Shown here piece by piece: positions 4,912 to 59,805 of a stretch of 64,000 nucleotides of DNA; positions within the stretch are counted from its first letter, which is position 1; every line of letters starts with the position of its first letter. Position numbers and translations under genes: made by a program. Location: assembly GCF_900100045.1 (NCBI RefSeq), contig NZ_FNEA01000008.1:62001-126000 (forward strand), in the 5' to 3' direction. Below the pieces are notes generated by a model. The model was not told where the DNA came from, did not search any database, and saw nothing but the letters and a program-made list of their open reading frames with translations. Source of the DNA: Paracoccus denitrificans. GTDB taxonomy: Bacteria; Pseudomonadota; Alphaproteobacteria; Rhodobacterales; Rhodobacteraceae.

Positions 4912-5383
4912 GCGGGCGGTCATCCTGGCCGCGCTGGCGCTGGCGGCTTGCGGCTTTTCCCCGGTCTACGGGCCGGGGGGCACGGGCGGCAAGCTGTTCG
5001 GCCAGGTCCGCACCGCCGATCCGCGCACGCCGGACGACTTTGCCTTTGCCGGCCGCATCGCCGAACGGCTGGGGCCCGAAGCGAATGCCCGCTTCCTGCT
5101 AGACTACAGGCTGCGCATCGCCGTGGTGCCGCAGGCGATCACCCCCGACGAGGTAACGACGCGCTATGCCCTGAACGGCAGCGCCGATTTTACCCTGACC
5201 GAAGCCGGAACCGGCCGCGAGGTGACGCACGGGCAGGTCAGCAGCTTTACCTCGTATTCCACGACCGGCACCACCATCGCGACCATGGCGGCCGAGCAGG
5301 ACGCGCATGAACGGCTGGCGCGGATGCTGGCCGACCAAGTGGTGACGCGGCTCCTGGCCGTCCAGCCCGACGCGGTGCCATGA
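4898..5383 (+). CDS. lptE: LPS-assembly lipoprotein LptE
   Basis: A 161-residue lipoprotein: [18 protein letters not shown] ends in the lipobox, so acylation is at Cys18, and the typical [10 protein letters not shown] motif follows. LptE plugs the LptD barrel in the outer membrane and helps insert lipopolysaccharide. The order leuS-lptE-holA is the standard proteobacterial arrangement and supports the call. It overlaps leuS by 14 nt and holA by 4 nt. Confidence 0.94.
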
Positions 5384-6408
5384 TCCTGAAGGGCGCCGAG
5401 ATCGGACGCTACCTGGCGCGGCCCGATCCGACGCGGCCGGCGCTGCTGCTCCATGGGCAGGACGCGATGCGCGTGGCGCTGAAGCGCGCCGAGGCGGTCA
5501 AGGCGCTGGTCGGGGAGGGCGCCGAGGAAGAGATGCGCCTGACCCGCATTCCCGGCGCCGATCTGCGCAAGGATCCGGCAGCGCTTCTGGATGCGGTCAA
5601 GGCGGTGGGCTTCTTTCCCGGCCAGCGCGTGGTGCTGGTCGATGACGCGCCGGACGCCGCCGCGCCCGCCGTCGCCTCGGCAATCGCGGAATGGAAGCCG
5701 GGCGATGCGGTGATCGTGGTCGCAGGCGGTGCCTTGGGCAAGTCCTCGGCGCTGCGCAAGCTGTTCGAGCCGCATCCCGCCGCCGTCACGGCGCCGATCT
5801 ACGACGACCCGCCCGGCGAGGAGGAGATCGGGCGCTGGCTGAAGGATGCCGGCCTGCGCGAGGTGCCGCGCGACGCCATGCGCGACCTGATGGCGCTGTC
5901 CCGCGCACTGGATCCGGGGGATTTCCGGCAGACGGTGGAAAAGATCGGGCTTTACAAGCATGGCGACCCCGAGCCGCTGACCCCCGCCGAGATCGCCGCC
6001 CTGGCGCCCGCCACCATCGAGGCCGAGGTGGACGAGTTGATCGATTGCGTGGCCGAGGGCCGCGCGCGAGAGTTCGGCACGCTGATGCGGCGGATCGAGG
6101 GGCAGGGCACGGTGCCGGTGACGCTGTGCATCGCGGCGCTGCGGCATTTCCGGGCGCTGCATGCCGGGGCCTCGGACCCGGGCGGGCCGGGAGCGGGGCT
6201 TTCGCGGCTGCGGCCGCCGGTTTTTGGTCCGCGCCGCGACAGGATGATTCGCCAGGCGCAGGATTGGGGGATGCGGGCGCTGGAGGATGCGATCCACCAG
6301 TTGATCGAGACCGACCTTGTGCTGCGATCCTCGTCCCGGGCGCCGGCCATGGCGCTGATGGAGCGGATGCTGTTGCGGCTGTGCATGATGCCGCGGGGCG
6401 GGCGGTGA
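5380..6408 (+). CDS. holA: DNA polymerase III subunit delta
   Basis: The 342-residue protein is the clamp-loader delta subunit, which opens the sliding clamp. The N-terminal AAA+-like fold lacks a functional Walker A, as expected, and shows LLLHGQDAMRV and FFPGQRVVLVDD. The C-terminal half carries VDELIDCVAEGRA and PVTLCIAALRHFR, typical of HolA. The start overlaps the lptE stop by ATGA and its stop overlaps the next gene's GTG start by 4 nt, so four genes in a row are translationally linked. Confidence 0.93.
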   Translation: MILKGAEIGRYLARPDPTRPALLLHGQDAMRVALKRAEAVKALVGEGAEEEMRLTRIPGADLRKDPAALLDAVKAVGFFPGQRVVLVDDAPDAAAPAVASAIAEWKPGDAVIVVAGGALGKSSALRKLFEPHPAAVTAPIYDDPPGEEEIGRWLKDAGLREVPRDAMRDLMALSRALDPGDFRQTVEKIGLYKHGDPEPLTPAEIAALAPATIEAEVDELIDCVAEGRAREFGTLMRRIEGQGTVPVTLCIAALRHFRALHAGASDPGGPGAGLSRLRPPVFGPRRDRMIRQAQDWGMRALEDAIHQLIETDLVLRSSSRAPAMALMERMLLRLCMMPRGGR

Positions 6409-7610
6409 CCGAGATCGAGGCCCTGGTGATCGGTGCGGGGCCAGCCGGGCTGATGGCGGCCGAGGTGCTGGCCGGGCAGGGCGCCCGGGTGGTGGTGGCC
6501 GAGGCCATGCCGACCCCGGCGCGCAAGTTCCTGATGGCGGGGAAATCCGGGCTGAACCTGACGCGGGATGAAGCCTGGGAACTGTTCGTGACGCGATATG
6601 GGGGCGCTGCCCCCGGCCTTCGGCCTCCCCCGGAGTATTTGGAGAACGGAGAAATCGGGCCGCAGGAGGTCATGGCCTGGGCGCGTGGGCTGGGAGTGGA
6701 GTTGTTCACCGGCTCGACCGGGCGGGTGTTTCCGGTCGGCATGAAGGCGTCGCCGCTGTTGCGGGCCTGGCTGGCACGGCTTGCGACGATGGGGGTCGAG
6801 TTGCGGACGCGCTGGCGCTGGACGGGTTTTCTGGGCGAAGGCTGGCGCTTCGAGGTGCCGGACGGGATCGAAGTGCTGGCGCCCCGCACCGTGGTGCTGG
6901 CGCTGGGCGGGGCGAGTTGGCCGCGGCTGGGCTCGGATGCGGCCTGGGTGCCCTGGCTGGTTGGGCGGGGCGTGGCGGTGGCGCCGTTCCGGCCGGCGAA
7001 CATGGGGTTCCGCGTCACATGGTCGGCGCAGATGGCGCGGCATTTCGGCCAGGCGGTCAAGGGCGTGGCCCTGCATGTCGCCGGCCGGGTCGGACGCGGC
7101 GAATGGGTCGTCACCGCCAGAGGAATCGAGGGCGGCGGGATCTATGAGGTCTCGGCCGCGATGCGCGACGGGGCCGAGGCTTTCGTCGATCTGGCGCCGG
7201 ACCTGGATGCCGGGGAACTGGCGCGGCGCCTTGCGCGCGCGCCCTCGAAGCTGTCGGTCGGCAACCGGCTGCGGCGGGTTCTGGGCGATCCGGTCCGCGC
7301 GGCGCTGCTGATGGAGTGGGGCCAACCGCTGCCTGCCGAGCCCGAGCGGCTGGCCATGCGCGCCAAGGCGCTGCGGTTGCGGCACGACGGGCCGATGGGC
7401 ATCGAGCGGGCGATTTCCTCGGCCGGGGGGATCGCCGCCGAAAGCCTGACCGATGCGCTGGAGCTGAAAGCGCTGCCCGGCGTCTTTGCCGCCGGCGAGA
7501 TGCTGGACTGGGAGGCGCCGACCGGCGGCTATCTGCTGACCGGCTGCCTTGCCACCGGGCGGCTGGCCGGGCAGGGCGCCGCCGCCTATCTGGCCGTCGC
7601 GCGCAGATAG
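6405..7610 (+). CDS. HI0933-like NAD(P)/FAD-dependent flavoprotein (TIGR03862-type)
   Basis: This 401-residue protein starts at a GTG overlapping the holA stop. It has an N-terminal dinucleotide fold (VIGAGPAGLMAAE, residues 8-20), the family motif KFLMAGKSGLNLT (about 43-55), GSTGRVFPVGMKAS, and a C-terminal FAD-contact segment with GVFAAGEMLDWEAPTGGYLL. Members are putative oxidoreductases of unknown substrate. Bases 6600-6653 inside the gene match a dispersed non-coding repeat and are read in frame as GGAAPGLRPPPEYLENGE (see repeat entry). The 3' end overlaps the convergent GST gene by 25 nt. Confidence 0.9.
   Translation: MTEIEALVIGAGPAGLMAAEVLAGQGARVVVAEAMPTPARKFLMAGKSGLNLTRDEAWELFVTRYGGAAPGLRPPPEYLENGEIGPQEVMAWARGLGVELFTGSTGRVFPVGMKASPLLRAWLARLATMGVELRTRWRWTGFLGEGWRFEVPDGIEVLAPRTVVLALGGASWPRLGSDAAWVPWLVGRGVAVAPFRPANMGFRVTWSAQMARHFGQAVKGVALHVAGRVGRGEWVVTARGIEGGGIYEVSAAMRDGAEAFVDLAPDLDAGELARRLARAPSKLSVGNRLRRVLGDPVRAALLMEWGQPLPAEPERLAMRAKALRLRHDGPMGIERAISSAGGIAAESLTDALELKALPGVFAAGEMLDWEAPTGGYLLTGCLATGRLAGQGAAAYLAVARR
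6600..6653 (+). repeat. Dispersed double-hairpin repeat with GTATTTGG tail, copy A (intragenic)
   Basis: Two adjacent small hairpins, GGGGGC-GCT-GCCCCC (6600-6614) and GGCC-TTC-GGCC (6615-6625), are followed by a tail (6628-6653) containing GGAGTATTTGGAGAACGG. The same architecture occurs at 28077-28135 and, degraded, at 57477-57540. This copy lies inside a flavoprotein gene and keeps its frame. Confidence 0.7.
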
Positions 7611-27944: not shown

Positions 27945-28076
27945 TCGGGGCTCCTGTCTCATTCCGGCATCACTTAGAGCCGCCCCGCCGCCGTTTCAAC
28001 CAAGCCGCCGGCAAGGACCGCAAACCGCAACGGACCCGACGCCGTCTTCCGGCACCGAAAAGCGCCCCATCCCGGC

Positions 28077-28135
28077 TCTTTCCGTTTTCCAAATACCCCA
28101 GGGGACGCCCTGCAAGGGCGGGGGGCGGAGCCCCC
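28077..28135 (-). repeat. Dispersed double-hairpin repeat with GTATTTGG tail, copy B (hslV-hslU spacer)
   Basis: On the minus strand, GGGGGC-TCC-GCCCCC (28121-28135) and CGCCCT-TGC-AGGGCG (28106-28120) are followed by a tail with GGGGTATTTGGAAAACGG (about 28079-28104). It starts 3 nt after the hslV stop. Structure and order are the same as copy A. It may act as an mRNA stabiliser or partial terminator between hslV and hslU. Confidence 0.75.
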
Positions 28136-28138
28136 TGA

Positions 28139-28693
28139 CTACCCCAGAACCTCGACGGTCAGGTTCCCGTTGGTATAGACGCAGATATCCGCCGCGATCG
28201 CCATGGCCTTGCGCGCCACGGCCTCGGCATCCAGGTCGCTCTCCATCAGCCCGCGCGCCGCGGCCAGCGCGAAATTCCCGCCCGAGCCGATGGCGGCCAC
28301 GTCATGCTCGGGCTCCAGCACGTCGCCGGCCCCCGTCACCACGAAGATGTCGCGCCCGTCGGTGACGATCAGCATGGCCTCCAGGTTGCGCAGATACTTG
28401 TCCATGCGCCAGTCCTTGGCCAGGTCGACACAGGCCCGCGCCAGCTGGCCGGGCGCCGCCTCCAGCTTCTTCTCCAGCCGCTCCAGCAGGGTGAAGGCAT
28501 CGGCGGTCGAGCCGGCAAAGCCCACCACCACCTCATGTCCGCCGGGGTTCAGCCGGCGCACCTTGCGCGCCGTGCCCTTCATCACCGTCTGGCCGACGCT
28601 GACCTGGCCGTCCCCGGCGACGACCACGCGGCCGGCCCGCCGAACGGCCAGGATGGTGGTGCCGTGCCAGCCGGGAAATTTGTCTTCGGACAT
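28139..28693 (-). CDS. hslV: ATP-dependent protease subunit HslV
   Basis: The 184-residue proteasome-like peptidase has the catalytic Thr exposed after processing in [11 protein letters not shown] (Thr12). [20 protein letters not shown] and [16 protein letters not shown] are family signatures. It assembles as a double hexamer capped by HslU and degrades misfolded and regulatory proteins after heat shock. ATG 28693 is used; the preceding extension lacks family similarity. It is divergent from the capsule-like gene. Confidence 0.97.
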
Positions 28694-57476: not shown

Positions 57477-57540
57477 GGTTCCACGACGGAACCGATCGGC
57501 CCGCTGGCACGGCCGCATGAGTATTTGAAGAACGAAGAAG
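57477..57540 (+). repeat. Dispersed repeat with GTATTTGG-type tail, degraded copy C
   Basis: GGTTCC-ACGAC-GGAACC (57477-57493) and a GC-rich stretch precede a tail GAGTATTTGAAGAACGAAGAAG-like segment at 57519-57540, which resembles the tails of copies A and B with one base lost (TTTGAAG instead of TTTGGAG). The first hairpin differs from those copies, so this is less certain than they are. It lies after phyR. Confidence 0.5.
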
Positions 57541-59709: not shown

Positions 59710-59805
59710 TGGCGGAAGAGAGTGGGAGTCGAACCCACCCGGGACAGGCTCACTGCCCCAACCGGATTTGAAGTCCGGCCGCCCCACCGGGGACGCTTCT
59801 CTTCC
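59710..59805 (-). tRNA. selC: tRNA-Sec (selC, anticodon UCA)
   Basis: The 96-nt gene includes the encoded CCA. The 5' GGAAGAGA pairs with 3' TCTCTTCC in an unusual 8-bp acceptor stem. The anticodon loop is ACTTCAAAT with TCA, flanked by CCGG/CCGG arms, and a long variable arm (GGGGCAGTGAGCCTGTCCC region) is typical of tRNA-Sec. Its 5' end touches the selB stop codon with no spacer. It decodes UGA as selenocysteine together with SelB. Confidence 0.95.

Follow-up and report, generated by a model that had tools for sequence, protein, structure and literature searches.

The window analysed here, a stretch of 64,000 nucleotides, forms part of one contig (C58) of a 5.19 Mb Paracoccus genome (G000, the source genome below). 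Positions 6405..7610 of the plus strand encode a HI0933-like flavoprotein of the TIGR03862 family, assigned by a match of 438 bits to NCBIfam TIGR03862 (curated cutoff 243) and one of 190 bits to PF03486. Its relatives in the PDB are 2i0z, 4cnj, 3v76 and 2gqf, which are also the first four entries returned by Foldseek, and the closest named matches in a contig search come from P. lutimaris (83%) and Paracoccus sp. DMF-8 (68%). The gene overlaps an upstream open reading frame (5380-6408) that has no Pfam match and is itself preceded by an LptE gene. Genes were called with our own codon-usage caller, whose starts may be off (6381 versus 6405 for the flavoprotein gene); because the start was taken as 6405, positions 6600-6653 are codons 66-83.

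These codons are a full copy of a dispersed repeat, two hairpins and a 21-nt tail, carried in frame within the coding sequence and read as GGAAPGLRPPPEYLENGE (6600..6653, plus strand), as the first-pass annotation of this DNA had described. Hairpin 1 (GGGGGCGCTGCCCCC, 6600..6614) pairs GGGGGC with GCCCCC, according to the fold and to pair counts, and hairpin 2 (GGCCTTCGGCC, 6615..6625) pairs GGCC with GGCC here and GTCC with GGAC in sister species, according to the fold and the species comparison. A CCCCC run (6627-6631) leads to the conserved tail GAGTATTTGGAGAACGGAGAA (6633..6653), which is translated EYLENGE and was recognized by weight matrix, reversed control and pattern search. In an AlphaFold2 model built from 31 sequences (pLDDT 87, pTM 0.86), the insert sits in a low-confidence loop, residues 70-82 having pLDDT values below 50 between helices at 58-66 and 86-95; residues 45-47 likewise fall below 50. 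This loop would lie on the protein surface.

The 16-nt tail pattern recurs within the window at 6635, 28081 (minus strand) and 57521 (two mismatches), in agreement with the earlier reading, and three or more matches arose in only one of 100 shuffles of the window. The second site belongs to a full intergenic copy with two hairpins and tail (28078..28135, minus strand), which starts 3 nt past the TAG stop of a minus-strand gene. The third is an intergenic tail copy (57519..57539, plus strand); a plus-strand gene ends about 65 nt ahead of it, and a convergent gene follows. It had been called a degraded copy, at 57477; the tail there is in fact clear, whereas the sequence preceding it belongs to a different hairpin subtype. 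An Rfam scan of the window returned no family for the repeat, the only match being a selenocysteine tRNA at 59714-59805 (minus strand; RF01852, 80.6 bits).

Across the whole source genome, the 16-nt pattern at up to two mismatches gives 127 matches as compared to 4 for the reversed pattern, and the search for further copies envisaged in the first-pass annotation finds the 21-nt tail pattern 169 times when up to three mismatches are allowed. A 71-nt query (6590-6660) finds 18 further matches at E<=0.001. The best of them (C63:33673, E 8e-12) is 86% identical over query bases 11-65 and includes the hairpins; more than the tail is therefore repeat-like, contrary to the earlier suggestion that only the tail may be repeat-derived. 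A weight-matrix search found 88 tails in 1,173,763 bp on six contigs, while the reversed sequence gave none above 12 bits and a single site above 8 to 11 bits. The six contigs, which make up 22.6% of the genome, were chosen as rich in matches and contain 84 of the 169 hits to the tail pattern; on this basis the genome is estimated to have approximately 180 copies rather than the 390 of a plain extrapolation. The consensus of the conserved repeat end is (C)ATGRGTATTTGGRRAACGRAGAA. GC hairpins precede it in several subtypes distinguished by eye, namely a single G-run/C-run, the same with a second hairpin, and a smaller form ending CATGRG. The repeat unit is about 50-75 bp; hairpins are visible in many of the copies printed, an impression rather than a count per copy.

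The dispersed family has the general characters of REP elements, being short, palindromic, high-copy, mostly extragenic and located between codirectional or convergent genes. Although gene calls cover 91% of the sample, 84 of the 88 tails lie outside called genes, and 56 of these 84 come after a same-strand gene. Copies per kb of intergenic sequence amount to 1.95 between convergent genes (29 copies), 0.94 between codirectional genes (53) and 0.06 between divergent genes (2). Judged by this positioning, the dispersed family may have a 3'-end or RNA role. In nineteen cases, neighbouring copies are no more than 200 bp apart; 15 of these pairs are on opposite strands, and 13 of the 15 are tail to tail. 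The tail-to-tail pairs, 38-185 nt apart (C57:13701/13753, C55:64669-64794, C70:142075/142131 and others), could in principle pair into one long hairpin. With regard to coding potential, stop codons are unusually rare in the tail: 53 of the 84 dispersed copies of it have no stop in any of the six frames, as compared to 3.8% of shuffles. The 53-nt element as a whole is not exceptional in this respect, being free of stops in all six frames in 22.6% of cases, as compared to 21% of other intergenic 53-mers.

All four in-gene copies among the 88 sampled tails keep the reading frame. Besides the flavoprotein gene, a MOSC/YiiM-like protein gene (C70:87086-87838; PF03473, 129 bits) has an insert of about 25 codons containing PGVSHPRTPVEYLENRE, the hairpin of which recurs in the dispersed copy at C63:16654. 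This insert occurs in 6 of the 30 loci examined (47 genomes matched) and is absent from the other 24; the six may represent a paralogous lineage, because both G000 and G059 hold a second, insert-free gene of the MOSC family. In the MOSC locus of G048 (L304), the in-gene hairpin is duplicated in tandem with the frame kept. A CobG-like protein gene (C57:77752-78870; TIGR02435 at 208 bits, under the cutoff of 235) carries an antisense copy read as FPFSKYPCDGA, found in 5 of 30 loci examined (62 genomes matched). Finally, in IleS (C63:37604-40534; TIGR00392 at 766 bits, cutoff 621) the tail lacks the G-run hairpin and is read in a different frame as GIWETEK; it occurs at 8 of the 30 loci examined (61 genomes matched), with variants that differ between species. 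The same place in IleS holds other extra residues in L372, L373, L378, L380, L381, L382 and L387, indicating frequent length change.

The flavoprotein insert was followed through 63 orthologs within the genus and 47 outside it, of which 40 belong to the rest of the family (taken from 136 other-genus genomes with any match) and 7 to other families. The genus set derives from 73 genomes including the source genome, of which four had no whole flavoprotein match (G014, G017, G029, G031) and six had orthologs that were left out (G010, G016, G036, G055, G067, G071). Hairpin and tail are both present in 42 of the 63 genus orthologs, the tail only in 6 and neither in 15, so the repeat copy is present in 48. 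Distant orthologs sharing the same DNA or protein segment would have spoken against a repeat origin; neither tail nor segment occurs in any of the 47 orthologs from other genera and families, and the insert is absent from all 18 outgroup rows of the tree. The genus forms one clade (SH-aLRT 100) with copies in each of its main branches. The insertion is old and common to the genus, and not private to the source genome.

Presence on the tree requires 13 changes, which makes loss, or renewed insertion at this site, a common event. The tree is a quick one that leaves 35 of 78 inner branches open. Its coding includes a tail set present by hand (L034), a doubtful case counted as tail only (L063), two orthologs scored as lacking the element (L069 and L212, which have TTATTT and are otherwise unlike it) and one scored as tail only despite long inverted repeats (L201). 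One ancestral in-frame insertion followed by later losses is the probable history, and repeated insertion at one place a possible one. The flavoprotein elements of L201 and L015 have much longer inverted repeats (in L015 a 12-bp perfect stem), and the frame is kept in both.

These comparisons bear on two other accounts of the similarity. In the first, the protein needs the peptide PPEYLENGE and the DNA merely looks repeat-like, and some other genera indeed read YGGAAPxLRP at the place of the insert, recalling the YGxAAPxLRP-like family segment that the first-pass annotation had pointed to. That resemblance is itself probably due to chance, because FLTHY-HPDWIRP-IVAEFGP or FLAAY-GCDWLAP-IVASFGP stands at this site in the genera nearest in the tree and because the hairpin part matches dispersed copies. 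Given the agreement with a dispersed copy over 55 query bases, the restriction of the segment to the genus and the presence of the repeat in three more sampled genes in other frames or orientation, chance similarity between the in-gene copy and the repeat is rejected, and a protein-driven origin appears extremely improbable. In the second account, the coding copy is the ancestral one, from which the dispersed copies descend. The age of the insert within the genus would agree with this; however, the repeat extends beyond the genus, its tail being found at up to three mismatches in 120 of 149 family genomes and in 83 of 101 genus genomes (many of the low per-genome counts being no higher than in the reversed control), while none of the 40 orthologs from other genera was found to carry the insert. 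A coding origin is, in our view, scarcely credible.

Within the gene, the two arms of the hairpins change together, stem pairs and hairpin 2 varying on both sides. Among the 42 hairpin copies, with stem pairs lined up from the loop so that G4 and G5 cores shift register, the fifth pair is GC in 33, CG in 8 and TA in one; this variation is partly a register shift, because a G4 core goes with CG or TA and a G5 core with GC. The seventh pair, aligned in the same way, is GC in 8, CG in 8 and unpaired in 20. A single paired difference, CG to TA, separates L017 from L018. Hairpin 2 is, depending on species, GGCC/GGCC, GTCC/GGAC, GCGTCCC/GGGACGC, GCGTCCG/CGGACGC, GCGCCCG/CGGGCGC or a 12-bp stem, and the change between the first two forms reads GLRP versus VLRT in the protein.

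The codon-position pattern of the insert can be set beside that of its surroundings. Across six closely related species, the 19 codons of the insert vary at 4, 4 and 5 sites in the first, second and third codon positions, as compared to 7, 8 and 24 and 6, 4 and 17 in the flanks (42 codons each). Among 18 sister pairs chosen by eye, the element is less alike than the flanks by at least 0.05 in 6, the reverse holds in 3 (L010/L013, L066/L206, L067/L205) and neither in 9. Most clearly, L012 and L014 have flanks that are 96% identical and a tail that matches at 14 of 21 positions (Fisher p 7e-5, for a pair picked afterwards and a flank count taken from rounded identity). Similarly, L036 and L199 have flanks 92% identical, an element 75% identical with 9 additional gap positions, and different hairpin types.

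The tail, in turn, differs between genomes. Judging by the matches listed, many copies within a genome have the middle and end of the tail in common, as a characteristic variant or 'dialect', for example ...GGGAACAGAAGAA in G261, ...GGGAACAATGAA in G253 and ...GGGCAAGATGAA in G160. Such variants are not always unique, ...GGACAACGAAGAA being present in G130, a member of another genus, and also in G003, G022 and G053, and the latter three are not independent because they share it. In-gene flavoprotein tails tend to resemble the dispersed tails of their own genome: in seven genomes, 4 of 5040 permutations (the true one included) were as good or better, whether similarity was scored on the nearest fifth of tails or on the mean. 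The dispersed tails in this comparison are those among the matches listed, obtained with differing patterns and with other coding copies kept (the G056 set includes its MOSC copy). The in-gene tail is nearest to its own genome in six of seven cases by the nearest fifth (ties allowed; G003 is the exception), and in only three of seven when all dispersed tails are averaged (the mean measure). The in-gene tail of G048 occurs 7 times among the 40 typed dispersed tails of that genome and nowhere in the sets of the other six genomes, that of G056 once among its own 40 typed tails and twice in the G048 set, and that of G064 resembles its clade and not the dispersed copies printed for it. When four genes were compared across four genomes, the own genome came closest for 7 of 8 in-gene tails, two of them by ties, the exception being the MOSC tail of the source genome; the MOSC tail of G048 is unlike the dispersed tails printed for G048.

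An in-gene element acting as an RNA signal (an attenuator, pause or processing site) could account for several of these features, since parallel change would then reflect co-evolution with one binding factor and not conversion. The arms change together even at an amino-acid cost (GLRP to VLRT), the dispersed copies lie behind genes and tail variants are common to the copies within a genome, all of which suits a signal read from RNA. Yet 15 of the 63 genus orthologs do without the element, and the CobG-like copy is antisense. In addition, neither of the two copies scanned (6550-6700 and 28040-28180) contains a terminator-like site or the GC hairpin with a U-tract at once after it that defines an intrinsic terminator, and the in-gene copy folds no better than shuffles (z -0.44, in a comparison where the L012 stretch was missing the start of its first hairpin). 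On balance, an RNA signal seems rather unlikely.

The first-pass annotation further proposed that, provided the match was real, a mobile intergenic repeat had supplied protein sequence, an interpretation that the results support. The lineage-restricted presence of the insert and the existence of insert-free sites are what lead us to infer mobility, whereas no transposition was seen and no mobiliser was found. A REP-associated transposase was sought in the source genome without success: its sole Y1_Tnp protein belongs to IS200 and scores 33 bits against REP_Tyr_transpos, under the cutoff of 80, and no repeat tail lies within 1.5 kb of its gene. No target-site duplication was established.

The account that best covers the observations as a whole is that of a REP-like repeat with a tolerated in-frame copy that continues to change in parallel with its relatives, and we consider it probable with some confidence. 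A palindromic repeat belonging to this bacterial family, made up of GC hairpins and then a tail such as GRGTATTTGGRRAACGRAGAA, normally sits behind genes, and one copy, presumably inserted as a unit, would have ended up within the flavoprotein gene of a Paracoccus ancestor without disturbing its frame. It may have been tolerated there because the tail is nearly stop-free, the insert is a multiple of three and the site lies between two helices. The coding copy would still be exchanged with the dispersed copies, possibly by gene conversion, or be selected in parallel with them, and as a consequence the loop would drift with the repeat variant of the genome and not with the protein. A single recogniser acting on all copies, also a possibility, would yield the same tail pattern. 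A bolder proposal is that loops of several Paracoccus proteins, IleS included, have been repeatedly rewritten by the repeat variant of their genome, through conversion or a common trans-acting recogniser whenever the dispersed repeats change their tail, such that the peptide would report the state of a non-coding repeat instead of selection acting on the protein; we offer it tentatively, as having somewhat less than an even chance. Our confidence in both the general account and this proposal is lowered slightly by the mean measure, which favours the own genome in only three of seven cases. The value of the system is that one site can be followed through 63 Paracoccus species against 47 insert-free orthologs, with three more genes in other frames or orientation, which allows one to ask whether selfish or regulatory DNA keeps shaping protein sequence after insertion and also raises the question of what makes a repeat variant change genome-wide.

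No published description of the Paracoccus repeat appeared among the listed titles and abstracts of literature searches that covered few subscription journals. Among known systems, REPINs are inverted pairs of REPs that are moved by RAYTs. The 13 tail-to-tail pairs, 38-185 nt apart, among the 88 Paracoccus copies resemble them, whereas no REP-associated transposase was found in the source genome. GTAG/CGTC REPs are described, in the parts of the report available, as high-copy palindromes that mostly follow genes, in places where the neighbours are codirectional or convergent, and are often oppositely paired; they also occur inside open reading frames of several species, tRNA synthetase genes included, and different REPs lie at about the same recB site in two Xanthomonas (PMC3733652). 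As far as that account extends, the Paracoccus repeat is likewise high-copy, located behind genes, oppositely paired and sometimes within open reading frames including IleS, but it differs in having a conserved 21-nt tail beyond the palindrome and in the lack of a detectable RAYT in the source genome. Its conserved end, the one profiled, has neither GTAG nor CGTC. Neither Paracoccus nor Rhodobacter is mentioned in the main texts of two reports (PMC3733652; PMC12306157).

The Rickettsia palindromic elements (RPEs) offer a further comparison, again within the portions of the literature available. Many Rickettsia genes contain an RPE in frame (PMC10969869). These elements are reported to be about 150 bp long, with nearly half of them in open reading frames, and in R. 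conorii to end in CGTC (PMC10969869; PMC3733652). The two systems are alike in that dispersed palindromic DNA is also found in frame in unrelated protein genes, four in the present case. They differ in size and distribution, the Paracoccus repeat being about 50-75 bp with 84 of 88 copies intergenic, and in the CGTC end, which has no counterpart at the conserved end here; the distinction is drawn from published descriptions. To the extent that these sources cover the subject, in-frame palindromic inserts are already known from Rickettsia and from some REP families, and the Paracoccus flavoprotein insert stands beside them.
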